From positions 1,922,001 through 1,986,000 of the forward strand of contig NZ_CP062163.1 in the NCBI RefSeq assembly GCF_014844095.1: DNA of 64,000 nucleotides, written 5' to 3'. This document shows positions 29,987 through 62,294 of this stretch, one piece after another. This stretch comes from Brevibacillus sp. JNUCC-41. Lineage in GTDB: Bacteria; Bacillota; Bacilli; Bacillales; DSM-1321. The notes below the pieces were generated by a model. That model made no database searches, was not told the origin of the DNA, and saw only the letters and a list, made by a program, of their open reading frames with translations. The translations under genes were made by a program, and so were the position numbers. Each line of letters opens with the position of its first letter. Position 1 is the first letter of the stretch.

Positions 29987-30270
29987 TGGATGCACGCGAT
30001 ATCATTAAGCGCCCCGTAATCACTGAACGCTCTTCAGACATAATGGCTGAAAAGAAATATACTTTTGAAGTTGATGTTAGAGCTAATAAAACTCAAGTTA
30101 AAGATGCTGTTCAAGAAATTTTCGGCGTTAAAGTTGAGAAAGTAAACATCATGAATTACAAAGGTAAATTCAAACGCATGGGCAAACATGCAGGCTATAC
30201 TAACAAGCGCCGTAAAGCTATTGTTAAATTAACTGCTGACAGCAAAGAAATCGAGCTATTCGAGGCTTAA
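29986..30270 (+). CDS. rplW: Ribosomal protein L23
   Basis: 94-aa protein at the tunnel exit; docking site for trigger factor and SRP. It begins [14 protein letters not shown]. The long-loop motif [10 protein letters not shown] and G-K-x-K-R-M-G are intact. It overlaps rplD by one base with GGAGGTG upstream. Confidence 0.98.
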
Positions 30271-30278
30271 TTCATTAG

Positions 30279-31127
<849 letters not shown>

Positions 31128-31137
31128 CGGGATTGCA

Positions 31138-31466
<329 letters not shown>

Positions 31467-31483
31467 TGAGAGGAGGGCATCTC

Positions 31484-31825
31484 ATGCAAGCTAAAGCTGT
31501 CGCTAAAACAGTTCGTATTGCTCCTCGTAAAGTGCGTTTAGTCGCAGATTTAATTCGAGGAAAACAAGTAGGTGAAGCAGTAGCGATTCTTCGCTTAACA
31601 CCAAAATCTGCTTCTCCAGTCGTAGAAAAAATTCTGAAATCTGCTATCGCAAATGCAGAACACAACTACGAAATGGATATTAATAACCTAGTCGTTTCAG
31701 AGGCATACGTTAACGAAGGACCAACATTAAAACGTTTCCGTCCTCGCGCTCAAGGTCGTGCGAGTGCTATTAACAAACGTACTAGTCATATTACAATCGT
31801 TGTATCAGAAAAGAAGGAGGGGTAA
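31484..31825 (+). CDS. rplV: Ribosomal protein L22
   Basis: 113-aa tunnel-wall protein. The motif [16 protein letters not shown] near the start and the tunnel hairpin R-P-R-A-Q-G-R-A-S are present without deletions, so no L22-type macrolide resistance is predicted. I chose ATG 31484, preceded by GAGGAGG; the ATG at 31466 overlaps rpsS and precedes that site. Confidence 0.98.
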
Positions 31826-31828
31826 TCT

Positions 31829-33114
<1,286 letters not shown>

Positions 33115-33132
33115 TGAATGGAGGTTTGCAGA

Positions 33133-33396
33133 ATGAGCGAACGCAACCAACGCAAAATCTACACTGGACGCGTAGTATCCGACAAAATGGATAAAACAGT
33201 TACAGTAGTTGTAGAAACCTATAAAAAGCATTCTTTATACGGTAAACGCGTGAAATACTCTAAAAAGTTTAAAGCTCATGACGAGCTAAACGAAGCTAAA
33301 GCAGGCGACGTAGTACGTATCATGGAAACTCGTCCACTTTCAGCTACAAAACGCTTCCGTCTTGTAGAAGTAGTAGAAAAAGCAGTAATCATTTAA
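33133..33396 (+). CDS. rpsQ: Ribosomal protein S17
   Basis: 87-aa primary 16S-binding OB-fold protein beginning [19 protein letters not shown] and the R-P-L-S-A-T-K-R-F motif are intact. I chose ATG 33133 after GGAGG (at 33120-33124) over the upstream in-frame ATG at 33118. Confidence 0.97.
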
Positions 33397-33401
33397 TATA
33401 G

Positions 33402-33806
<405 letters not shown>

Positions 33807-33849
33807 TATGTAAAATTTGTATAAAGCCTTTCAAGGAGGTGCCAAGCTA

Positions 33850-34161
33850 ATGCATGTTAAAAAAGGTGACAAAGTCGTAGTCATCTCTGGTAAGGACAAA
33901 GGCAAACAAGGAACAATTCTTTCTGCATATCCGAAACAAAATCGTGTGCTTGTAGAAGGAATTAACATCGTGAAAAAGCATTCCAAGCCATCTCAACTTA
34001 ATCCACAAGGTGGAATTATCAGCAAAGAAGCTGCTATTCACGTATCCAATGTAATGCCACTTGATCCTAAATCAGGTAAACCGACTCGTGTTGGATATAA
34101 GATCGAAAATGGTAAAAAAGTACGCGTAGCTAAAATTTCAGGTGAATCTTTAGATAAATAA
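33850..34161 (+). CDS. rplX: Ribosomal protein L24
   Basis: 103-aa KOW-domain protein that initiates 50S assembly. It begins [20 protein letters not shown] chose ATG 33850 after CAAGGAGGTG; the ATG at 33817 precedes that site and is not conserved. [15 protein letters not shown] is the other signature. Confidence 0.97.
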
Positions 34162-34190
34162 GTCATAAATGAAGGGAGGTACACTAAGCA

Positions 34191-34730
34191 ATGAGCCGCC
34201 TTAAAGAAAAATTCAAAAGTGAAATTACACCGTCATTGATGGGTAAATTCAACTATCAATCAGTAATGCAAGTACCAAACATTGAGAAAATCGTTATTAA
34301 CATGGGTGTGGGTGACGCAGTATCTAACTCGAAAGCTTTGGATACAGCTGTTGAAGAACTTACATTGATCACAGGTCAAAAACCAGTTATAACAAAAGCA
34401 AAAAAATCAATCGCAGGCTTCCGTTTGCGTGAAGGTATGCCTATCGGAGCGAAAGTTACATTACGTGGAGAGCGTATGTATCAATTCCTTGATAAGCTAG
34501 TATCTGTATCTTTACCGCGTGTACGTGATTTCCGCGGCGTTTCAAAGAAATCCTTTGACGGACGTGGAAACTATACATTAGGTGTTAAAGAACAACTTAT
34601 CTTCCCTGAGATTGATTACGATAAAGTGAGCAAAGTTCGTGGTATGGACATCGTTATCGTAACGACTGCCAACACTGACGAAGAAGCTCGTGAACTACTT
34701 ACTCAAGTTGGAATGCCGTTCCAAAAGTAA
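34191..34730 (+). CDS. rplE: Ribosomal protein L5
   Basis: 179-aa 5S rRNA-binding protein of the central protuberance, forming bridge B1b. [12 protein letters not shown] and [11 protein letters not shown] are the signatures. It ends M-P-F-Q-K as usual. The Shine-Dalgarno is AAGGGAGGT. Its RNA partner, 5S, is encoded at 61.2 kb. Confidence 0.98.
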
Positions 34731-34737
34731 TCTCTAA

Positions 34738-34941
<204 letters not shown>

Positions 34942-34971
34942 AACCCGAGTTTGGGAAGGAGGTAAAATATA

Positions 34972-35370
34972 ATGGTCATGACAGATCCTATTGCAGATAT
35001 GCTTACTCGCATCCGTAATGCGAATATGGTTCGTCACGAAAAACTGGAAGTTCCTGCTTCAAAGATCAAAAAGGAAATCGCTGAGATCTTAAAAAGTGAA
35101 GGCTTCGTACGTGACTTTGAATTAATCGAAGACAACAAACAAGGTATCATCCGTATCTTCTTAAAATACGGTGCAAACAACGAACGTGTTATCACTGGTC
35201 TAAAACGTATCAGCAAACCTGGTTTGCGTGTATATGCAAAAACTGGAGAGGTACCACGCGTTCTTAACGGTTTAGGTATCGCAATTGTTTCTACTTCTCA
35301 CGGAGTTTTAACAGACAAGGAAGCTCGCTCTAAACAAGTTGGCGGAGAAGTTTTAGCATACGTTTGGTAA
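34972..35370 (+). CDS. rpsH: Ribosomal protein S8
   Basis: 132-aa central 16S-binding protein. It begins [16 protein letters not shown] 34972 is preferred over 34978 because it is 8 bases from AAGGAGGT. The C-terminal [12 protein letters not shown] motif binds helix 21. In E. coli S8 represses the spc operon at rplE; no equivalent structure was evident here. Confidence 0.98.
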
Positions 35371-35400
35371 TACATTTTCACAAGAATGGAGGTGCACATT

Positions 35401-35937
35401 ATGTCTCGTATAGGTAAAAAACCTATTGAAATCCCTGCAGGCGTAACAGTTACTATTACTGGAAGTGAAGTAACTGTTAAAGGACCTAAAGGTGAATTAA
35501 CTAGATCATTCAATCCTGACCTTTCAATCGTTGTTGAAGAGAACGTGTTAACTGTTACACGTCCGTCTGACGAGAAGGCTCACCGTTCTTTACACGGTAC
35601 TACTCGCGCACTTATCTCTAACATGGTTGAAGGTGTATCAACAGGTTTCGTAAAATCACTTGAACTTATTGGGGTTGGGTACCGTGCACAAAAGCAAGGT
35701 AACAAGCTTGTCCTTAACGTAGGATATTCCCACCCTGTAGAAATAGAGCCAGAAGCTGGCGTTGAAGTCGAAGTTCCTTCTAATACAAAAGTAATCATCA
35801 AAGGTGCAAGCAAAGAACGTGTAGGAGCTCTAGCAGCTAATATCCGTGATGTTCGCCCGCCTGAGCCGTATAAAGGTAAAGGTATCCGTTACGAAGGCGA
35901 ATTCGTTCGTCGTAAAGAAGGTAAAACTGGTAAGTAA
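35401..35937 (+). CDS. rplF: Ribosomal protein L6
   Basis: 178-aa protein near the factor-binding site. It begins [12 protein letters not shown]. The C-terminal signature [11 protein letters not shown] is intact. ATG 35401 follows TGGAGGTGC; the ATG at 35386 precedes that site. Confidence 0.98.
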
Positions 35938-35969
35938 TGCCGCATAAGTAAACGAAAGGAGTGACGTAA

Positions 35970-36332
35970 ATGATTACGAAGCTTGATAAAAATGCTACTC
36001 GTCAGAAAAGACATGCGCGTGTACGTGCTAAGCTTTCTGGAACAGAAGCTCGTCCTCGTTTAAATGTGTTTCGTTCAAACAAACACATTTACGCACAATT
36101 AATTGACGATGCAAAAGGCGTAACATTAGCAAGTGCTTCAACTCTTGATAAAGAGATCGGTATCGAAGCTAGTAGCAATGCTGAAGCAGCTCAAAAAGTT
36201 GGCGAACTTATTGCGAAACGTGCTGTTGAAAAAGGTTTCAAAGCTGTGGTATTTGACCGCGGTGGTTACCTCTTCCATGGTCGTGTAAAAGCATTGGCTG
36301 ACGCTGCTCGTGAAAACGGCTTAGAATTTTAA
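35970..36332 (+). CDS. rplR: Ribosomal protein L18
   Basis: 120-aa 5S-binding protein. It begins [11 protein letters not shown] with a basic N-terminal tail. [14 protein letters not shown] and the end [10 protein letters not shown] are diagnostic. The Shine-Dalgarno is GAAAGGAG. With L5 it forms the 5S RNP. Confidence 0.98.
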
Positions 36333-36354
36333 TGGATAAGGAGGGACATAACAG

Positions 36355-36855
36355 ATGCGTAGCATTGATCCTAATAAATTAGAACTTGAAGAACGCGTAG
36401 TTACAGTAAATCGTGTAGCTAAAGTTGTTAAAGGCGGACGTCGTTTCCGTTTCACTGCACTAGTTGTTGTTGGTGATAAAAATGGTCATGTTGGATTTGG
36501 TACTGGTAAAGCTCAAGAAGTTCCGGATGCTATCCGTAAAGCTATTGAGGATGCTAAGAAAAATCTAATTACTGTACCAATGGTTGGTACTACAATTCCT
36601 CACCTTGTGAACGGTCGCTATGGCGCAGGTCACATTCTATTGAAACCAGCTTCTGAAGGTACAGGAGTAATTGCTGGTGGTCCTGTTCGTGCGGTACTTG
36701 AATTAGGCGGAGTTAGCGATATCCTGTCTAAATCACTAGGTACTAATACACCTATTAATATGGTTCGCGCAACAATTGAAGGATTGAAGCAATTGAAACG
36801 TGCTGAAGACGTAGCTAAGTTACGTGGAAAATCAGTACAAGAACTGTTAGGATAA
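36355..36855 (+). CDS. rpsE: Ribosomal protein S5
   Basis: 166-aa 30S accuracy protein. The loop [10 protein letters not shown], where spectinomycin-resistance changes occur, is wild-type. The second domain has [14 protein letters not shown]. The Shine-Dalgarno is AAGGAGGG. It follows rplR as normal. Confidence 0.98.
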
Positions 36856-36871
36856 GGAGGGAAATCGAATT

Positions 36872-37054
36872 ATGGCTAATAAATTAGAAATTACCCTCAC
36901 TCGCAGCTTAATTGGTCGTCCTGAAGATCAACGTGTTACAGTTAACACTTTGGGTTTACGCAAAATGCATCAAACGGTTATCCAAGAAGATAACCCTGCG
37001 ATTCGCGGTATGATTACCAAAGTTGCTCATCTTGTTACTGTAAAAGAACAATAA
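36872..37054 (+). CDS. rpmD: Ribosomal protein L30
   Basis: 60-aa 50S protein. It begins [16 protein letters not shown]. The [16 protein letters not shown] motif is conserved. AAGGAGGG lies in the 16-base gap after rpsE. Confidence 0.97.
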
Positions 37055-37086
37055 AATAATTTTTAACTTAACAAGGAGGTGCCAAC

Positions 37087-37527
37087 ATGAAACTTCATGA
37101 GTTAAAAGCTGCAGAAGGTTCTCGTAAAGAACGTAAACGTAAAGGTCGCGGTATTGGATCTGGTAACGGTAAAACAGCAGGTAAAGGACATAAAGGACAA
37201 AACGCTCGCTCCGGCGGCGGTGTGCGTCTTGGATTTGAAGGGGGACAAACTCCTCTATTCAGACGTTTACCTAAACGTGGATTTACCAACATCAACCGTA
37301 AAGACTATGCTATCGTGAATCTTGATACGTTAAATCTTTTCGAAGACGGTACTGAAGTAACACCAGCTCTTTTACTTGAGACTGGGGTTGTAAGTAAAGA
37401 AAAAGCAGGAATCAAAATTCTTGCCAAAGGAAGCATTGAGAAAAAGCTTACTGTTAAAGCTCACAAATTCTCGTCTACTGCTAAAGAAGCTATCGAAGCT
37501 GCTGGCGGTAATACAGAGGTGATCTAA
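37087..37527 (+). CDS. rplO: Ribosomal protein L15
   Basis: 146-aa late 50S assembly protein. It begins M-K-L-H-E-L-K and has the glycine/basic-rich tail [18 protein letters not shown]. Its TAA shares a base with the secY ATG, coupling ribosomal protein and translocase synthesis. Confidence 0.98.
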
Positions 37528-38822
37528 TGTTTCGCACGATCTCCAATTTTATGCGCGTGGGTGAAATAAGGAATAAGATTATTTTTACCCTTCTAATGTT
37601 AATCGTCTATCGCATCGGTACATTTATACCTGTACCGCATGTGAATGCCGATTTTCTCGCTGAACAGGACCAGCTGAGCGTCATCGGTCTTTTAAATACC
37701 TTTGGCGGCGGGGCGCTGCAAAACTTTTCTATATTAGCGATGGGTATCATGCCTTACATCACGGCATCCATCATCGTTCAGCTGTTACAGATGGATGTTG
37801 TTCCTAAGTTCACTGAATGGTCTAAACAAGGAGAAGCAGGGCGCCGTAAATTAGCACAATTCACTCGTTACTTCACTATTATCCTAGGATTTATCCAAGC
37901 AGTTGGTATGTCTTATGGGTTCAATAATATGTCAGGTGGCCAGTTGATTGAAAATCCTGGAATTGCAACATACTTGCTTATTGCGACTGTCTTAACGGCA
38001 GGAACAGCTTTTCTTTTGTGGTTAGGGGAGCTGATCACTGCTAAGGGTGTGGGTAATGGGATTTCCATCATTATCTTTGCTGGTATCGTAGCTAGTTTGC
38101 CAAATACGGCAAATCAGATTTACGCCCAACAATTTGAAAATGCCGGTGATCAATTATTCTTACGAATCATAACGATTATCCTCATTGTTTTAGCAGTATT
38201 AGCAATCGTGGTTGCTGTTATTTTCATTCAGCAGGCATTACGTAAAATTCCTATTCAGTATGCGAAACGTGCTGCGGTAGGTCGTACACAAATGGGTGGC
38301 CAGTCTACTCATTTACCATTGAAAGTAAATGCTGCGGGGGTTATTCCGGTAATCTTTGCAATGGCATTTATCATTACTCCCACTACAATCGCTTCTTTCT
38401 TTGGAAAGAACAGCGTGACTAGTTGGATATCAGCAAATCTTGATTATACCAAGCCAATTGGTATGATCATCTATGTTGCTCTTATCATTGCTTTTGCGTA
38501 TTTTTATGCATTCATTCAGGTAAACCCTGAACAAATGGCTGAGAATTTGAAAAAGCAAGGTGGCTATGTGCCGGGGATTCGTCCAGGTAAGAGTACACAA
38601 GAATATTTGACACGTGTTTTATACCGTTTGACGTTTGTAGGCTCCATTTTCTTGGCCATCATTGCCGTTTTACCGGTATTTTTCATTAAGCTTGCTGATC
38701 TGCCTCAATCTGCACAGATTGGCGGTACCAGTTTGCTGATCGTAGTGGGGGTTGCCCTTGATACGATGAAGCAGCTGGAATCACAACTTGTGAAGAGACA
38801 CTATAAAGGCTTTATAAAGTAA
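37527..38822 (+). CDS. secY: Preprotein translocase subunit SecY
   Basis: 431-aa pore-forming subunit with ten predicted membrane helices. Typical features are R-I-G-T-F-I-P-V-P in helix 1, the plug region after it, L-W-L-G-E-L-I-T in helix 4, and the C-terminal R-V-L-Y-R-L-T-F cytoplasmic/TM9 region. It overlaps rplO by one base. SecE is at 11.0 kb. GC and codon use differ slightly from the flanking r-protein genes, as expected for a membrane protein. Confidence 0.98.
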   Translation: MFRTISNFMRVGEIRNKIIFTLLMLIVYRIGTFIPVPHVNADFLAEQDQLSVIGLLNTFGGGALQNFSILAMGIMPYITASIIVQLLQMDVVPKFTEWSKQGEAGRRKLAQFTRYFTIILGFIQAVGMSYGFNNMSGGQLIENPGIATYLLIATVLTAGTAFLLWLGELITAKGVGNGISIIIFAGIVASLPNTANQIYAQQFENAGDQLFLRIITIILIVLAVLAIVVAVIFIQQALRKIPIQYAKRAAVGRTQMGGQSTHLPLKVNAAGVIPVIFAMAFIITPTTIASFFGKNSVTSWISANLDYTKPIGMIIYVALIIAFAYFYAFIQVNPEQMAENLKKQGGYVPGIRPGKSTQEYLTRVLYRLTFVGSIFLAIIAVLPVFFIKLADLPQSAQIGGTSLLIVVGVALDTMKQLESQLVKRHYKGFIK

Positions 38823-38868
38823 TGAGTTTTGGGAACGCCTTGTTCCCTTTACCCATTATAGAGTTTGA

Positions 38869-39534
<666 letters not shown>

Positions 39535-39539
39535 TCGTT

Positions 39540-40078
39540 CGTATTGATTTATGAAATTCATACCATTTTTATAACTTACTAGTTAAACTTGGTGCATTCC
39601 TATAATACAAAGGGTATAATGGATTTCGCGAGAGCATTCGCACATTTATTAATCAGGTTCTTGTACTTGGTATTCCCTGAATTGGGCGATTACTTTTTAA
39701 GTGATCTTCATGGACATATCCGGTCGGCAAAATTGATGAAGAAATGCAGTGACTCTATTGGGATTCCTAAAGAGTCGTGATATAGAGGGTTGAAAGAAGC
39801 TATGTCAGGCGTGCGCCTTTCAAACATCTCCCATGCTATTCAAACCTATGTCGAGACTAATTGCTTCTCTATTTCGAGAGTATGTCGGTCACGGAATCGG
39901 TCAAGACTTACATGAGGACCCATAAAATCCTCATTTCGGTCCAACTGATAAAGGTCCTCAGTTAAAGCCTGGTTCTACAAAATGGTGAATACTTGATGCA
40001 GAATTTTAAGACTTATGAGGATAATTGGACTGTAGTAATGTTGACGGAAAGATGTGCACCTTTAATAGGTTCACGCAT
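39540..40078 (+). pseudogene. map: Degraded methionine aminopeptidase gene (map remnant)
   Basis: Met-aminopeptidase fragments occur in the correct order but in different frames and with stops. Recognisable pieces: E-I-H-T-I near 39555; K-G-Y-N-G-F-R-E-S-I (from ~39608); N-Q-V-L-V-L-G-I-P then a stop; S-S-W-T-Y-P-V-G-K-I-D-E-E-M (around 39707-39748); Y-R-G-L-K-E-A-M-S-G-V-R-L-S-N-I-S-H-A-I-Q-T-Y (39781 on); R-E-Y-V-G-H-G-I-G-Q-D-L-H-E-D-P then a stop; G-P-Q-L-K-P-G; and N-W-T-V-V with V-D-G-K-M-C. The N-terminal ~40 codons and segments such as the metal-binding D-I-I-S-I-D and I-E-P-M regions are gone. It cannot make enzyme. It occupies exactly the normal map locus between adk and infA; the usual ybzG (KOW protein) is also absent. 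Confidence 0.9.
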
Positions 40079-40099
40079 AGAGAAGGGAGAATCACTTTA

Positions 40100-40318
40100 A
40101 TGGCGAAAGATGATGTAATTGAAGTAGAAGGCACAGTACAAGAGACTTTGCCAAATGCAATGTTTAAGGTAGAATTAGAAAATGGTCATACTGTTTTAGC
40201 TCATGTATCCGGTAAAATTCGTATGCACTTTATTCGCATTTTGCCTGGAGATAAAGTTACGGTTGAGCTTTCCCCGTATGATCTAACTCGCGGCAGAATC
40301 ACATACCGGTTCAAATAA
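40100..40318 (+). CDS. infA: Translation initiation factor IF-1
   Basis: 72-aa S1-fold protein that binds the 30S A site. It begins [11 protein letters not shown]. The motif [17 protein letters not shown] is conserved. ATG 40100 follows GAAGGGAG. The same frame is open upstream to an ATG at 40025 within the map remnant; this is treated as accidental. Confidence 0.97.
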
Positions 40319-40352
40319 TCCGGTTACGCTCCGATCTGTATAAGGAGGTTAG

Positions 40353-40472
<120 letters not shown>

Positions 40473-40494
40473 ATAGAAGGAGGTGCACTCAAGC

Positions 40495-40860
40495 ATGGCA
40501 CGTATTGCTGGAGTAGATATTCCCCGTGACAAACGTATTGTTATCTCATTAACATATATATATGGTATTGGAAAACAAACAGCGATCAAGATTCTTGCAG
40601 AAGCAGGCGTTTCTGAAGAAACTCGCGTTCGTGACTTAACGGAAGACGAATTGAACAAAATTCGTGATATCATTGACAAGCTTAAAGTAGAAGGCGACCT
40701 TCGTCGTGAAATCTCCCTAAACATCAAACGTTTAATGGAAATCGGTTCTTACCGTGGTTTACGTCACCGTCGTGGTCTTCCTGTTCGCGGTCAAAATACA
40801 AAAAACAATGCTCGTACGCGTAAAGGACCTCGTCGTACTGTAGCTAACAAGAAAAAATAA
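40495..40860 (+). CDS. rpsM: Ribosomal protein S13
   Basis: 121-aa 30S head protein contacting P-site tRNA and L5 (bridge B1). It begins [28 protein letters not shown] is diagnostic. I chose ATG 40495 after AAGGAGGTGC; the ATG at 40483 precedes it. Confidence 0.98.
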
Positions 40861-40867
40861 TTAGTAA

Positions 40868-41272
<405 letters not shown>

Positions 41273-41288
41273 TTTTTCTGTATAGATT

Positions 41289-41317
41289 TTGTATTCCTGT
41301 CAATAATGGGATATAAT
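41289..41317 (+). promoter_or_regulatory. Candidate sigma-A promoter for rpoA-rplQ
   Basis: TTGTAT (41289-41294), 17-base spacer, perfect TATAAT (41312-41317), in the gap after rpsK. It would supplement read-through from the upstream operon. Confidence 0.6.
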
Positions 41318-41449
41318 ACTGAGTTTGCGTTCTTACAGAGGATTAATTTTCAGTTGTTGCGCACAGCGGGAACGTATACATGGGGAATTTCGGTTTAAGT
41401 GACTTCGTTTACTTGCCGGGGTTTTGACGTTTTGAAGGAGGGTTTATTG

Positions 41450-42394
41450 ATGATCGAAATAGAAAAACCAAAAATCGAAACGGTTGAAATCAACGACGAT
41501 ACCAAATACGGTAAATTCGTCGTAGAGCCACTAGAGCGTGGGTATGGTACTACATTGGGTAACTCCTTACGTCGTATCCTTTTATCCTCACTCCCAGGTG
41601 CTGCTGTCACAGCTATACAAATTGATGGAGTGCTACATGAGTTCTCAACAATTGAAGGCGTCGTGGAAGATGTAACATCTATCATTCTTAATGTGAAAAA
41701 ACTAGCTCTTAAGATTTACTCTGATGAAGAGAAGACGCTGGAAATTGACGTTCAGGGTGACGGAGTCATCACGGCTGCTGATATCACTCATGATAGTGAT
41801 GTAGAAATTCTTAATCCGGATTTATATATTGCTACAATTGGTAAAAACGGTCATATGCGTATGCGTTTATCTGCACGTCGCGGCCGCGGCTACACTCCTG
41901 CTGTTCAAAACAAGAGAGAAGACCAGCCAATTGGTGTAATTCCAATCGATGCTCTTTACACTCCAGTTTCACGCGTATCTTTCCAAGTTGAAAATACACG
42001 TGTTGGACAGTTGTCTAACTTTGACAAGTTAACGTTCGATGTTTGGACTGATGGCAGTACTGGTCCGCAAGAAGCGGTAGCACTTGGAGCTAAGATTTTA
42101 ACAGAGCATTTAAATATCTTTGTTGGTTTAACCGATGAAGCTCAAAATGCTGAAATCATGGTTGAAAAAGAAGAAGATCAAAAAGAAAAAGTTCTTGAGA
42201 TGACGATCGAAGAATTAGACCTTTCTGTTCGTTCTTACAACTGCTTGAAACGTGCTGGAATCAATACCGTTCAAGAGCTAGCTCATAAAACGGAAGAAGA
42301 TATGATGAAAGTACGTAATCTAGGACGTAAATCACTTGAAGAAGTGAAAGCGAAACTAGAAGAATTAGGCTTAGGTCTTCGTAAAGACGACTGA
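41450..42394 (+). CDS. rpoA: RNA polymerase alpha subunit
   Basis: 314-aa subunit. The N-terminal assembly domain has [18 protein letters not shown] linker rich in K/E (about 225-235) precedes the C-terminal domain, where [14 protein letters not shown] and [11 protein letters not shown] bind UP elements and regulators such as Spx. I chose ATG 41450 after GAAGGAGGG; an in-frame ATG at 41399 lies upstream of that site. Confidence 0.98.
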
Positions 42395-42476
42395 TAACAT
42401 GGCGGATCAATCCATTATGTTGTGAGCCTTGTTATAGACACACAATATAGAACTTCAACAAAGGAGGGAATCTCTA

Positions 42477-42839
42477 ATGGGTTACAGAAAGTTAGGACGC
42501 ACTAGCGCACAACGTAAAGCATTACTTCGTGATTTAGCTACGGATCTTATTATCCATGAGCGCATTGAAACTACTGAAGCACGTGCAAAAGAATTACGTT
42601 CTGTAGTAGATAAAATGATCACTCTTGGTAAACGTGGTGACTTGCATGCACGCCGTCAAGCTGCATCTTTCATCCGTAACGAAATCGCTGACGCTGAGAA
42701 TGGCACAGATGCCCTTCAAAAACTATTCAGTGACGTGGCTCCACGTTATGAAGAACGTCAAGGTGGATACACTCGTATCATGAAAGTTGGTCCACGCCGC
42801 GGTGACGGTGCACCAGTCGTGGTTATTGAATTAGTTTAA
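42477..42839 (+). CDS. rplQ: Ribosomal protein L17
   Basis: 120-aa tunnel-exit protein. It begins [28 protein letters not shown] and G-G-Y-T-R-I are conserved. The Shine-Dalgarno is AAAGGAGGG. It is the last gene of the alpha cluster and is followed directly by a terminator. Confidence 0.98.
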
Positions 42840-42850
42840 TAACAACGATG

Positions 42851-42905
42851 AAAAAGGGCGGGACAAATGAATATACTCACTTGTTCTATGCCCTTTTTCT
42901 TTTTT
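42851..42905 (+). terminator. Terminator after rplQ
   Basis: AAAAAGGGC (42851-42859) pairs with GCCCTTTTT (42890-42898), with inner pairing of GGACAA and TTGTTC, followed by a long T-run. It ends the ribosomal-protein transcript. Confidence 0.85.
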
Positions 42906-42952
42906 TATTATAGAAATTCTGTCATCTAGAAATTCGCATTGAGTGTTACGAT

Positions 42953-43120
42953 GGCTGGCGGAACCTGTATTATGCAGGGAGCCTTCACGTCTAGCTCAAG
43001 CATCCCTTCCCGCTTTTGACAAGCGATTATAAGATAACCTGTTTTTCGTAACAGGCCCGCTATTAGCTGCTCTTAATTTACCGAAAATTCTTTCGGTGGA
43101 AGGGGTGCAGCGTTTTTTTA
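42953..43120 (+). other. Structured non-coding stretch between rplQ and ecfA1
   Basis: Three folded units lie in a 300-base gap without genes. Unit one is GGCT(42953)...AGCC(42983) enclosing CCTG/CAGG. Unit two is CCTGTT (43038-43043) with AACAGG (43050-43055). Unit three is a terminator: GCTGC (43066-43070) with GCAGC (43107-43111), inner ACCGAAA/TTTCGGT, then a T-run. The middle (GTCTAGCTCAAGC ... CCGCTTTTGACAAGCG) resembles, from memory, ends of intergenic repeats common in Bacillus. I cannot assign a riboswitch class. Confidence 0.4.
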
Positions 43121-43205
43121 TATTTTCAGAAAGAAAAACTACTGTATATTGATTGAGCAGAGTTTAGTTTAGACGAGTGCAGTCGAGGATGAGGAGGGCC
43201 ACATA

Positions 43206-44042
43206 ATGAAGAAGCTGGTTTCTTTAAATAATATTGTTTTTAAATATGAGGGTCAGTCTCGAAACGCCTTGGATGATGTTTCTTTTGATATTCATCAGGG
43301 GGAGTGGCTTGCGATTGTCGGACATAATGGCTCTGGCAAGTCGACATTAGCAAAGTTACTGAATGGTCTTCAGTTCGCTAACTCAGGTACCATTACGATT
43401 AATGATCAACTTTTGACAGAAGAATCCGTTTGGGATGTTCGCCAGAAAATTGGCATGGTCTTTCAAAACCCAGATAATCAATTTGTAGGCACTACAGTTC
43501 AGGATGATGTGGCTTTTGGTTTAGAAAACGCCGGTGTTTCTCAGCAGGTTATGGTGGAGCGTGTTCATGGTGCGTTAAATAAGGTTAAAATGAATGCCTT
43601 TCTTAATCAAGAGCCGCACCATCTATCCGGCGGTCAAAAGCAAAGAGTGGCCATAGCAGGTGTAATAGCCCTGCAGCCAGACATAATCATCTTAGATGAA
43701 GCAACCTCCATGCTTGACCCAAGAGGCCGTGAAGAAGTGCTTGAAACAGTTAGGGAATTGAAACAGGAAAACGAGATCACTGTCATATCAATCACCCATG
43801 ACCTTGAGGAAGCTGCCAAAGCTGATCGAATGATAGTCATGAACCAAGGTCGGTTATATCGTGAAGGACCGCCTCAGGATATTTTTGAGTTAGAGGAAGA
43901 ATTGATTGCCCTTGGTCTGGATATTCCCTTTTCAGTGAAACTAACCAAGGAGTTACAAAAAAATGGTGTTCGTGTAGTTGATGGGCATTTGACAGAGGAA
44001 GAGTTGGTGAAGGATTTATGCGAATTACACTCGATGATGTAG
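43206..44042 (+). CDS. ecfA1: ECF transporter ATPase EcfA1 (CbiO type)
   Basis: 278-aa ABC ATPase of the energy-coupling factor module for vitamin and metal uptake. Walker A is G-H-N-G-S-G-K-S-T (about residues 38-46), the Q-loop is in V-F-Q-N-P-D-N-Q-F, the signature is L-S-G-G-Q-K-Q-R, and Walker B is [12 protein letters not shown]. It overlaps ecfA2 by 25 bases. Together with EcfA2 and EcfT it serves several S components encoded elsewhere (group II ECF). The start follows GAGGAGGGCC. Confidence 0.97.
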
Positions 44043-44884
44043 AATACCGCTATCAGGTGAATACTCCTTTTGAACATCTAGCCCTTCATGATGTCAATAT
44101 TTCAATGGAGCCGGGAACCTATACCGCAATCATCGGGCATACAGGGTCCGGGAAATCCACGCTACTGCAGCATTTGAATGCTCTTTTAAAACCGACGAAG
44201 GGTCGTGTTTTCATTGGGGATCGGACGATTGAAGCCGGAAGAAAAGAAAAGGCTTTGCGGCCAATAAGACAAAAGGTCGGAATAGTTTTTCAGTTTCCGG
44301 AACATCAGTTATTTGATGAAACGGTTGAAAAGGATATATGTTTCGGACCAATGAATTTTGGCGTTTCTGAAATCGATGCTAAGAAACTGGCCAGGAAAGC
44401 CATCGCGCAAGTCGGATTGAATGAGGAAATTCTTGAAAAATCTCCATTCGACTTATCCGGCGGACAAATGCGACGGGTGGCCATTGCTGGGGTACTTGCC
44501 ATGGAACCCGAAGTATTGGTGCTTGATGAGCCAACAGCGGGATTGGATCCGCGAGGACGCAAAGAAATCATGGATATGTTTTATGATTTGCATAAAGCAA
44601 GGGGCATTTCAACGATTCTTGTAACACATAGCATGGAGGATGCAGCCAAGTACGCGGATGACATCATTATCATGCACAAGGGTACGGTGTTCCAAAAAGG
44701 AACCCCCCAGGAAATTTTCTCGGAGCCGGAACAATTAATGGAGCTTGGCCTGGATGTTCCGGATACGGTCCGTTTTCAGCTGAAGCTCCAGAAGGAACTT
44801 GGTGTTCGATTTGATCATCCGTGTCTTAATATCAGTGATTTAGCGATAGAAATAGATAAAGCCATGAAACGGGGGAACCGCTGA
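44018..44884 (+). CDS. ecfA2: ECF transporter ATPase EcfA2
   Basis: 288-aa partner ABC ATPase. Walker A is G-H-T-G-S-G-K-S-T, the Q-loop F-Q-F-P-E-H-Q-L-F, the signature L-S-G-G-Q-M-R-R, and Walker [13 protein letters not shown]. The E in D-E-P is the catalytic glutamate. It starts inside ecfA1 and shares its last base with the ecfT ATG, so the three products are translationally coupled, as suits a 1:1:1 complex. Confidence 0.97.
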
Positions 44885-45681
44885 TGCTGGATAAAATGAT
44901 TATCGGGCGTTATGTCCCTGCAAATTCACTGATGCACAAGATGGACCCAAGGGCTAAATTACTCCTCGTGTTCCTGTTTGTTTGTGTCGTCTTTTTGGCG
45001 AATAATGTCGTTTCTTACGGGTTGCTTGCTGTATTCACCATCCTTTTGATCAGTCTTTCCAAAATACCGCTTCGTTATCTTTATAATGGGTTAAAACCAA
45101 TCTTTTTCTTGATCGTATTCACATTCCTTCTCCATATATTTTTTACGAAAGAAGGGGAATTGCTTTTTGAATACGGTTGGTTTGAAATCTATGAAGGCGG
45201 TCTGATTCAAGGTTTTTTCATATCCGTTAGATTTACTTTACTAATCCTTGTTACGTCACTTTTAACTTTGACGACATCCCCGATATCCATTACAGATGGA
45301 ATGGAAGAGCTGTTGGGACCCTTGAAGAAGTGGAAGATGCCTGTACATGAACTGGCATTGATGATGTCCATTGCCCTTCGATTCATTCCAACGCTAATGG
45401 AGGAAACGGAAAAAATCATGAAGGCCCAAACTGCAAGGGGAGTTGATTTTTCATCTGGCCCGATAAAGGACAGGGTTAAATCGATTGTACCGCTGCTTGT
45501 TCCTTTATTTGTCAGTTCATTCAAACGGGCGGAGGAATTGGCAACTGCCATGGAGTCAAGAGGATACCGTGGCGGGGAAGGCCGCACGAAATATCGCCAA
45601 TTGGACTGGAAGACGAGTGATAGTCTTTTGATGGTCTCAATAGGCGTTCTAACGGTCATGTTATTTTTATTACGTTCATAA
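44884..45681 (+). CDS. ecfT: ECF transporter transmembrane protein EcfT
   Basis: 265-aa membrane scaffold with four or five hydrophobic helices in the N-terminal half. Two Ala-Arg-Gly-type coupling motifs occur in its cytoplasmic helices: A-Q-T-A-R-G near residue 180 and A-M-E-S-R-G-Y near residue 222. These insert into the ATPase grooves. It begins [12 protein letters not shown]. It overlaps ecfA2 by one base. An S component that could use it lies broken at 50.1 kb. Confidence 0.96.
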   Translation: MLDKMIIGRYVPANSLMHKMDPRAKLLLVFLFVCVVFLANNVVSYGLLAVFTILLISLSKIPLRYLYNGLKPIFFLIVFTFLLHIFFTKEGELLFEYGWFEIYEGGLIQGFFISVRFTLLILVTSLLTLTTSPISITDGMEELLGPLKKWKMPVHELALMMSIALRFIPTLMEETEKIMKAQTARGVDFSSGPIKDRVKSIVPLLVPLFVSSFKRAEELATAMESRGYRGGEGRTKYRQLDWKTSDSLLMVSIGVLTVMLFLLRS

Positions 45682-46436: not shown

Positions 46437-46485
46437 ATTTTTTCGAAGTGATACCAGTTTTTTTACAACCGGGAAACGGAATGAA

Positions 46486-46525
46486 ATCAGTAATGGAGCG
46501 GTTTGGCGCTATACTGATCTTTTCC
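46486..46525 (+). terminator. Possible terminator between truA and rplM
   Basis: ATCAGTA (46486-46492) pairs with TACTGAT (46512-46518), with an inner AGCG/CGCT stem, followed by CTTTTCC. The T-run is short, so it is weak. Confidence 0.35.
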
Positions 46526-46576
46526 TGGAGTTGCAGAGAGTGTTTTATAGACAACTTATCCTAGTGTAACATTCCC

Positions 46577-46605
46577 TTGACAATGAATCTGGGAGAAGTT
46601 AATAT
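46577..46605 (+). promoter_or_regulatory. Sigma-A promoter for rplM-rpsI
   Basis: TTGACA (46577-46582), 17-base spacer, TAATAT (46600-46605); a TATAAT at 46603-46608 overlaps. It lies just upstream of the L13 leader. Confidence 0.7.
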
Positions 46606-46617
46606 AATATGGTATGT

Positions 46618-46665
46618 ATTTTAATCCCACGATAAGCCCCGGAAGTTTATTGTGATTGAAAATAA
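46618..46665 (+). ncRNA. L13 leader (rplM autoregulatory element)
   Basis: The sequence CCCACGATAAGCCCCGGAAG (46626-46645) and the following GTTTATTGTGATTG match the short Firmicute L13 leader hairpin. Binding of L13 is expected to repress rplM-rpsI. Recognition is from memory of the family. Confidence 0.8.
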
Positions 46666-46701
46666 ATATAAAAAATTAAAAAGTTTTTTAGGAGGTTAAC
46701 C

Positions 46702-61405: not shown

Positions 61406-61480
61406 TCCGCAGTAGCTCAGTGGTAGAGCATTCGGCTGTTAACCGAACGGTCGTAGGTTCGAGTCCTACCTGCGGAGCCA
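61406..61480 (+). tRNA. tRNA-Asn(GTT)
   Basis: Cloverleaf with anticodon GTT in the loop CTGTTAA, acceptor TCCGCAG/CTGCGGA, encoded CCA. First of nine tRNAs behind the rrn operon. Confidence 0.97.
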
Positions 61481-61483
61481 TAT

Positions 61484-61556
61484 GCTTCCATAGCTCAGTA
61501 GGTAGAGCACTTCCATGGTAAGGAAGAGGTCAGCGGTTCGAATCCGCTTGGGAGCT
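61484..61556 (+). tRNA. tRNA-Thr(GGT)
   Basis: Anticodon GGT in the loop ATGGTAA, acceptor GCTTCCA/TGGGAGC. CCA is not encoded (TCCC follows), so it needs CCA-adding enzyme. Confidence 0.95.
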
Positions 61557-61587
61557 TCCCAATCTATCTATGAACGCAAAACAGATC

Positions 61588-61662
61588 GGCCCGTTGGTCA
61601 AGCGGTTAAGACACCGCCCTTTCACGGCGGTAACACGGGTTCGAATCCCGTACGGGTCACCA
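61588..61662 (+). tRNA. tRNA-Glu(TTC)
   Basis: Anticodon TTC in the loop CTTTCAC, acceptor GGCCCGT/ACGGGTC, encoded CCA. Substrate of GltX (4.3 kb). Confidence 0.97.
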
Positions 61663-61672
61663 TTTTAAATCC

Positions 61673-61748
61673 GGAGGATTAGCTCAGCTGGGAGAGCATC
61701 TGCCTTACAAGCAGAGGGTCGGCGGTTCGATCCCGTCATCCTCCACCA
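61673..61748 (+). tRNA. tRNA-Val(TAC)
   Basis: Anticodon TAC in the loop CTTACAA, acceptor GGAGGAT/ATCCTCC, encoded CCA. Confidence 0.97.
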
Positions 61749-61763
61749 TTTCATTCTTTACTT

Positions 61764-61839
<76 letters not shown>

Positions 61840-61857
61840 CTTACAACCATATATTGC

Positions 61858-61941
61858 GGAGGGGTAGCGAAGTGGCTAAACGCGGCGGACTGTAAATCCG
61901 CTCCTTCGGGTTCGGCAGTTCGAATCTGCCCCCCTCCACCA
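61858..61941 (+). tRNA. tRNA-Tyr(GTA)
   Basis: Class II tRNA of 84 bases with a long variable arm (around CTCCTTCGGG), anticodon GTA in the loop CTGTAAA, encoded CCA. The following 104 bases hold nothing recognisable. Confidence 0.97.
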
Positions 61942-62045
61942 TTTTAATAAAATCCTGTGGATTAGTTATATATTCTCTGTATTGGGGAAGTATATGATTA
62001 CCACCTTTTTATTTTGTTGAATATTAAACATTGCATATCATATAT

Positions 62046-62120
62046 TGGGCTATAGCCAAGCGGTAAGGCAACGGATTTTGATTCCGTCATGCGAAGGTTC
62101 GATCCCTTCTAGCCCAGCCA
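62046..62120 (+). tRNA. tRNA-Gln(TTG)
   Basis: Anticodon TTG in the loop TTTTGAT, acceptor TGGGCTA/TAGCCCA, encoded CCA. Probably charged indirectly through GltX and GatCAB. Confidence 0.97.
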
Positions 62121-62123
62121 TTT

Positions 62124-62195
62124 GCGGAAGTAGTTCAGTGGTAGAATACAACCTTGCCAAGGTTGGGGTCGCGGGTTCGAATCCCGTCTTCCGCT
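62124..62195 (+). tRNA. tRNA-Gly(GCC)
   Basis: Anticodon GCC in the loop TTGCCAA, acceptor GCGGAAG/CTTCCGC. CCA is not encoded (TTAATA follows). Confidence 0.95.
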
Positions 62196-62218
62196 TAATA
62201 AATTTTAAATCCCTTAAA

Positions 62219-62294
62219 GGGGCCTTAGCTCAGCTGGGAGAGCGCCTGCCTTGCACGCAGGAGGTCAGCGGTTCGATCCCGCTAGGCTCCACCA
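62219..62294 (+). tRNA. tRNA-Ala(TGC)
   Basis: Anticodon TGC in the loop CTTGCAC, acceptor GGGGCCT/AGGCTCC, encoded CCA. Last tRNA before the terminator. Confidence 0.97.

Follow-up and report, generated by a model that had tools for sequence, protein, structure and literature searches.

The copy of map, a methionine aminopeptidase gene, that stood between adk and infA in the ribosomal-protein operon no longer encodes a protein in the source genome, yet the DNA left in its place is strongly constrained among closely related species. On balance, we consider it probable that map also served as the promoter and 5′ leader for the infA–rplQ genes, that paralogues made the enzyme dispensable, and that only the second role remained. 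The remnant is probably well preserved because it holds the promoter and the untranslated start of the genes that follow, and intact map genes of relatives show hidden synonymous constraint at a promoter-like element and, within the family, at one downstream block.

Loss of the operon map, and the paralogues that remain

The window, that is, the whole stretch of 64,000 nucleotides that was analysed, corresponds to positions 1922001–1986000 of a single-contig genome of 5.49 Mb. Within it, 565 bp separate the end of adk (39534) from the start of infA (40100):

38881–39534, plus strand: adk, flanking gene
39535–40099, plus strand: map remnant, from the adk stop to the infA start; non-coding now, yet conserved
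40100–40318, plus strand: infA, flanking gene

With an intact copy from the same genus as query (G033, locus L043), tblastn recovered in this gap, in order, Map residues 50–120 (frame 3), 125–163 (frame 1), 160–195 (frame 2) and 212–221 (frame 3), and the linked E value of 8e-38 indicates that the likeness to Map is not due to chance. Five in-frame stops fall within the four matches, together with an internal deletion. Neither residues 1–49 nor the C-terminal end beyond residue 221 gave a tblastn match in the gap, and DNA alignment extends the likeness slightly, to about residue 228. The sequence-only reading, which had described ordered Map fragments in several frames with stops, deletions and a missing N-terminus, is thus confirmed by tblastn (five stops, three frames). 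One remnant of 561–567 bp is common to 21 genomes, which argues against sequencing error, and the protein from the operon map copy is dead in the source genome. A plasmid collection searched with positions 38800–40400 gave no match.

Within the genus, sampled with 36 genomes including the source, the operon map is intact with 248 codons in seven and decayed in 29. Beside the 21 genomes with the common remnant, G011, G001, G002, G009, G010, G022, G032 and G004 carry different remnants of 358–727 bp, and the earlier expectation that relatives would be found in varied states at this locus was borne out. A tree of adk and infA (43 rows) needs three state changes, of which its well-supported branches require no fewer than two; map was lost at this locus at least two times within the genus. 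Outside the genus, 47 loci were compared, seven from the same family and 40 from other families, the latter chosen from the better infA matches in a 199-genome sample of the order. The map gene is intact at all seven family loci and at 36 of the 40 others (35 with 248 codons, one with 249), while two of the 40 are broken and two are without a Map match; the five loci that did not have 248 codons were excluded from later codon counts. The broken copies (L121, L138) and the loci lacking a Map match (L126, L137) lie in further lineages of the order. Loss of map had been read as the mark of one lineage, a view that does not survive two or more losses in the genus and four of 40 other-family loci broken or not found. 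The spacing downstream of intact copies also differs: 324 bp separate map from infA at L041 and L042 (G014 and G025), compared with 59–120 bp at the five remaining intact loci in the genus, and other families often have gaps of about 330 bp here. Judged by eye, the 324-bp gap may hold a short KOW-type, YbzG-like gene.

A search of the source genome for the M24 peptidase family found six places, three of which hold open frames of Map size (L003, 251 aa; L004, 248 aa; L005, 246 aa), each scoring above the TIGR00500 (type I Map) cut-off, so that the intact map predicted elsewhere in the genome does exist. Genes of the L003 and L004 types, assigned by identity rather than by tree, each found a match in all 36 genomes of the genus, including the seven that keep the operon map, and the paralogues therefore did not arise with the loss. 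Replacement by a paralogue, as proposed from the sequence, holds insofar as other Map genes are present, but these were not new at the time of loss. In G007, an 87% complete genome, the L004-type gene is split by a stop (G007:C1:3553373-3554115), possibly an assembly error. Bacillus subtilis likewise has more than one methionine aminopeptidase per genome, map in the ribosomal-protein operon and yflG; map is reported to be essential and far more strongly expressed, and yflG not to be essential (PMC1266368). The source genome, by contrast, has lost the operon copy and retains others. Published accounts disagree on essentiality (PMC12548448).

A promoter-like element and a predicted leader within map

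Three features of the remnant bear on a role beyond coding:

39593–39620, plus strand: promoter-like TGCA-N18-TATAAT in map codons 53–61 (TGCA 39593–39596, TATAAT 39615–39620), recognised by its conservation
39627–40099, plus strand: predicted untranslated 5′ leader of infA, proposed from the promoter-like element; variation avoids positions predicted to pair
39899–39917, plus strand: conserved block GGTCAAGACTTACATGAGG, map codons 171–177, identical in 18 of 18 family rows

The element TGCA-N18-TATAAT, with a spacing of exactly 18 bp, occurs in 25 of the 29 decayed copies and is gone in G009, G010, G022 and G004, the last of which keeps only a 226-nt core of the remnant. It is also kept in the broken copies L121 and L138 of another family, and the gap at L126, which is without map, has AAAGGAGTATAAT. 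The same letters are visible in the codon choice of intact maps: Ala53 is GCA in 46 of 49, compared with 198 of 719 at other map Ala codons; Tyr60 is TAT in 47 of 49 (315 of 405 at other Tyr codons); and Asn61 is AAT in 47 of 49 (224 of 389 at other Asn codons). Across 35 maps of other families, codons 50–57 and 57–64 are the most constrained synonymously (family-wise p 0.015 and 0.048), and in 14 family maps the promoter window of codons 57–64, taken alone, reaches a family-wise p of 0.11, which is not significant. Viewed as a sigma-A-type promoter, the site combines a perfect TATAAT as –10 and a fixed spacing to TGCA, but its –35 half is weak (3 of 6 at best), and a consensus promoter scan leaves TGCA-N18-TATAAT unlisted.

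Promoters internal to operons offer a parallel, in that the infA–rplQ unit of B. subtilis reportedly begins upstream of infA (PMC4495994, citing Boylan 1989) and the element described here lies inside the map coding sequence; the difference is that this element outlives its host gene in several lineages. A separate arrangement is seen in G009, G010 and G022 (L037, L044, L045), where TTGACA-N17-TATTGT stands in extra sequence just upstream of infA and the map-internal element is gone; being nearer infA, it would exclude the leader from the resulting transcript.

Downstream of the promoter-like element, conservation is most evident within the family. In a block alignment of 18 rows out of the 43 available, GGTCAAGACTTACATGAGG and ATCTCCCA are unchanged in all 18, dead and intact copies alike, across four genera. 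Synonymous diversity over codons 169–176 is 0.035 in 14 intact family maps (family-wise p 0.002); codons 143–150 (p 0.29) and 127–134 (p 0.41) are low in the same maps but not family-wise significant. None of the downstream blocks shows significant synonymous constraint in the 35 maps of other families. For the 26-base stretch around GGTCAAGACTTACATGAGG, no second copy was found in the genome within 3 mismatches. The conservation of the remnant is partly accounted for by two elements hidden in the gene, the promoter-like site and the downstream block at the level of the family.

From these observations we propose that a promoter inside the map frame (codons ~53–61) would start transcripts for infA-rpmJ-rpsM-rpsK-rpoA-rplQ, on which the 3′ three quarters of map would remain untranslated as a 5′ leader (~470 nt in the window). 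An intact map would then serve two uses, as coding sequence on the long operon transcript and as promoter and leader on the shorter one. Once other Map genes rendered the operon copy dispensable, its reading frame could break while selection would preserve the promoter along with a large part of the leader. Folding of this leader may allow UCUCCC (39827–39832) to cover GGGAGA (40085–40090) at the infA ribosome-binding site, and thereby tune infA translation.

Constraint on the remnant and what it may reflect

That map has decayed, as the sequence-only reading stated, is correct for its coding capacity but not for its DNA. Among the 21 species, mean pairwise divergence is 2.21% in the remnant versus 11.69% at third codon positions in adk and 12.35% at those in secY, and sites vary at 62 of 565 positions (gap columns counted) versus 92 of 217 third positions in adk and 195 of 431 in secY. 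Relative to the window, the remnant differs by 0.9–3.0% in eight relatives, in which 13 other gaps were compared with it. The four gaps longer than 200 bp all diverge more than the remnant in each of the eight: differences amount to 3.1–17.4% for rpoC–rplGB, 3.8–13.6% for tuf–rpsJ, 2.2–6.6% for the gap after rplQ, and 3.0–9.4% for the gap at 46437–46701. Short operon gaps of 40–120 bp (fusA–tuf, rplGB–rpsL, infA–rpmJ and rpoA–rplQ) diverge as little as the remnant does, and the remaining gaps are mixed.

Remnant distances follow those of the flanking genes, with Spearman coefficients of 0.85 against secY and 0.86 against adk third positions (each reached in 0 of 500 permutations) and slopes of 0.18 and 0.20, respectively. 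This tracking at about one fifth of the rate points to slow vertical descent, and recent exchange between species is disfavoured as the cause of the low divergence. Variation declines within ~90 bp past the adk stop. At greater depth the constraint is weaker: the remnant differs from that of G011 by 23.1%, similar to other gaps at that distance, and the ratio of divergence in the core to that at adk third positions rises from 0.09–0.18 in three pairs inside the 21 species to 0.30–0.49 for the 21 versus G001 or G011, and 0.26–0.66 in the other usable pairs (pairs with adk third positions 64–76% different, whose alignment is out of register by one codon, were left out). The neighbouring infA is itself nearly frozen synonymously, with 3 of 72 third positions varying among the 21 species and a difference of 4.2% at such sites from G011 and from G010, far less than in its neighbours.

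It could instead be that the promoter alone is functional, and that the rest of the remnant is decaying spacer whose apparent conservation stems from a slow infA region or from recombination sweeps. Several observations fit such an account: in other families, synonymous constraint in map reaches family-wise significance only at the promoter-like element; infA is nearly frozen, and variation drops past the adk stop; at the distance of G011, conservation of the remnant does not exceed that of other gaps; and four short operon gaps are equally low. However, the ~470 bp past the promoter vary in step with the flanking genes and at no more than roughly a fifth of the synonymous rate, and the downstream blocks show no change across four genera, whether the copy is intact or dead. 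We consider a function confined to the promoter unlikely, albeit deserving of weight.

A plain pseudogene, replaced by a paralogue and in the course of being lost, is a much poorer account of the locus. It would explain why Map sequence is recognisable in the map position with its frame disabled by stops, frame changes and deletions, and it fits the paralogues matched in 36 of 36 genomes. Neutral DNA, however, is expected to change at about the synonymous rate, and the remnant is some five times slower among the 21 species, even if the constraint is weaker in other lineages; simple decay of this kind is improbable.

Predicted folding of the leader and related systems

Under the favoured explanation, in which map doubled as promoter and leader, the leader upstream of infA may fold, and the following elements were predicted:

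39751–39776, plus strand: predicted hairpin GACUCU (39751–39756) / AGAGUC (39771–39776), loop variable
39790–39823, plus strand: predicted hairpin UUGAAAG (39790–39796) / CUUUCAA (39817–39823)
39827–39832, plus strand: UCUCCC, predicted to pair with the ribosome-binding site of infA; unchanged in all 18 aligned family rows; in other families, 12 of 35 intact maps contain ATCTCCCAT
39912–39934, plus strand: predicted hairpin AUGAGGA (39912–39918) / UCCUCAU (39928–39934), loop variable
40085–40090, plus strand: GGGAGA, infA Shine-Dalgarno region, predicted partner of 39827–39832

RNAalifold places conserved blocks in helices, including UCUCCC with the GGGAGA of infA. When 17 sequences were folded singly, the mean pairing of UCUCCC with GGGAGA was at least 0.80 in 14 and low in L049 (0.35) and L043 (0.05), and long-range helices folded poorly in several relatives. 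In alignment A1, which comprises 16 of the 29 decayed copies (near-copies and the truncated L038 omitted), pairs are kept in 98.6% of cells with hardly any variation, and since few pairs vary, the power to detect covariation is low. Pairs changed on both sides number two, a value reached in 337 of 500 shuffles, and changed pair types were matched in 448; the cells paired, the covariation score and a third measure were reached in 16, 27 and 28 of 500 shuffles, respectively. Five covariation measures on alignment A2 were all unremarkable (216, 280, 89, 425 and 79 of 500 shuffles).

One test, in which the fold does not depend on the alignment, supports an RNA. Varying sites avoid the paired positions of the window's own single-sequence fold, as would be expected of a leader RNA, with 9 of 30 paired compared with 217 of 329 invariant sites among the 21 species (plus strand; Fisher 1.4e-4), and one adk control stretch showed no such avoidance; yet when the core was set against 73 control windows per strand in eight genomes, it took no more than second place among the 74 of the plus strand. 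Single-sequence folding energy is unremarkable on the plus strand (z –0.49). Alignment shuffling gives a folding z near –4, compared with –1.7 for adk and rpsM–rpsK, but two secY coding controls (–3.9 and –6.4) and the minus strand are as extreme or more so, so that this measure was not counted as evidence. Rfam gave no match at gathering scores over 30000–45000, and at E values up to 5 over 39500–40500 it returned only a sub-threshold snR39 on the minus strand (E 2.2). Taken as a model, a fold that covers the infA ribosome-binding site is plausible, although covariation adds little to it. The more specific proposal, that a new structured leader RNA controlling infA and the alpha operon was written within map and persists in place after the death of the protein, is possible but tentative.

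The remnant might also give rise to a small RNA, either antisense or separate, with an effect in trans or on the opposite strand. For its composition the minus strand folds better than the plus strand (z –1.91 versus –0.49), and variation likewise avoids its paired positions (Fisher 4.5e-3). The avoidance is nonetheless stronger on the plus strand, the promoter-like element is directed at infA, and the best-recurring helix includes the infA ribosome-binding site, all of which leave such an RNA with little likelihood. A short protein encoded by a piece of the remnant can be rejected with near certainty: open reading frames of 57–79 aa are present in the gap of the 21 species, but the longest varies in position and length between them, and single-base indels among the 21 make a coding reason for the conservation unlikely.

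The predicted leader invites comparison with those of ribosomal-protein operons, which may act by blocking a ribosome-binding site. Like the S4 leaders, it would be a conserved untranslated RNA before alpha-operon genes; it differs from them in standing before infA and within a protein gene or what remains of one, and it has neither a known ligand, nor decisive covariation, nor an Rfam family above threshold. S4 leaders precede rpsM in Clostridia and Fusobacteriales (PMC7247131). In the open-licence literature searched, we found no earlier account of this locus in terms of map loss, an internal promoter or a pseudogene-derived regulatory RNA, nor a description of a control region before infA and rpoA. 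The locus provides a natural series, within a very stable bacterial operon, running from intact genes that conceal a second function to dead ones retained only for that function; it offers a reason why operon 'junk' can persist and, through the contrast between intact and dead copies, it allows the dual use of coding DNA to be tested. A search for tRNA and tmRNA in the map remnant found none; elsewhere in the window, a cluster of nine tRNA genes lies at 61406–62294, downstream of the ribosomal-protein cluster.
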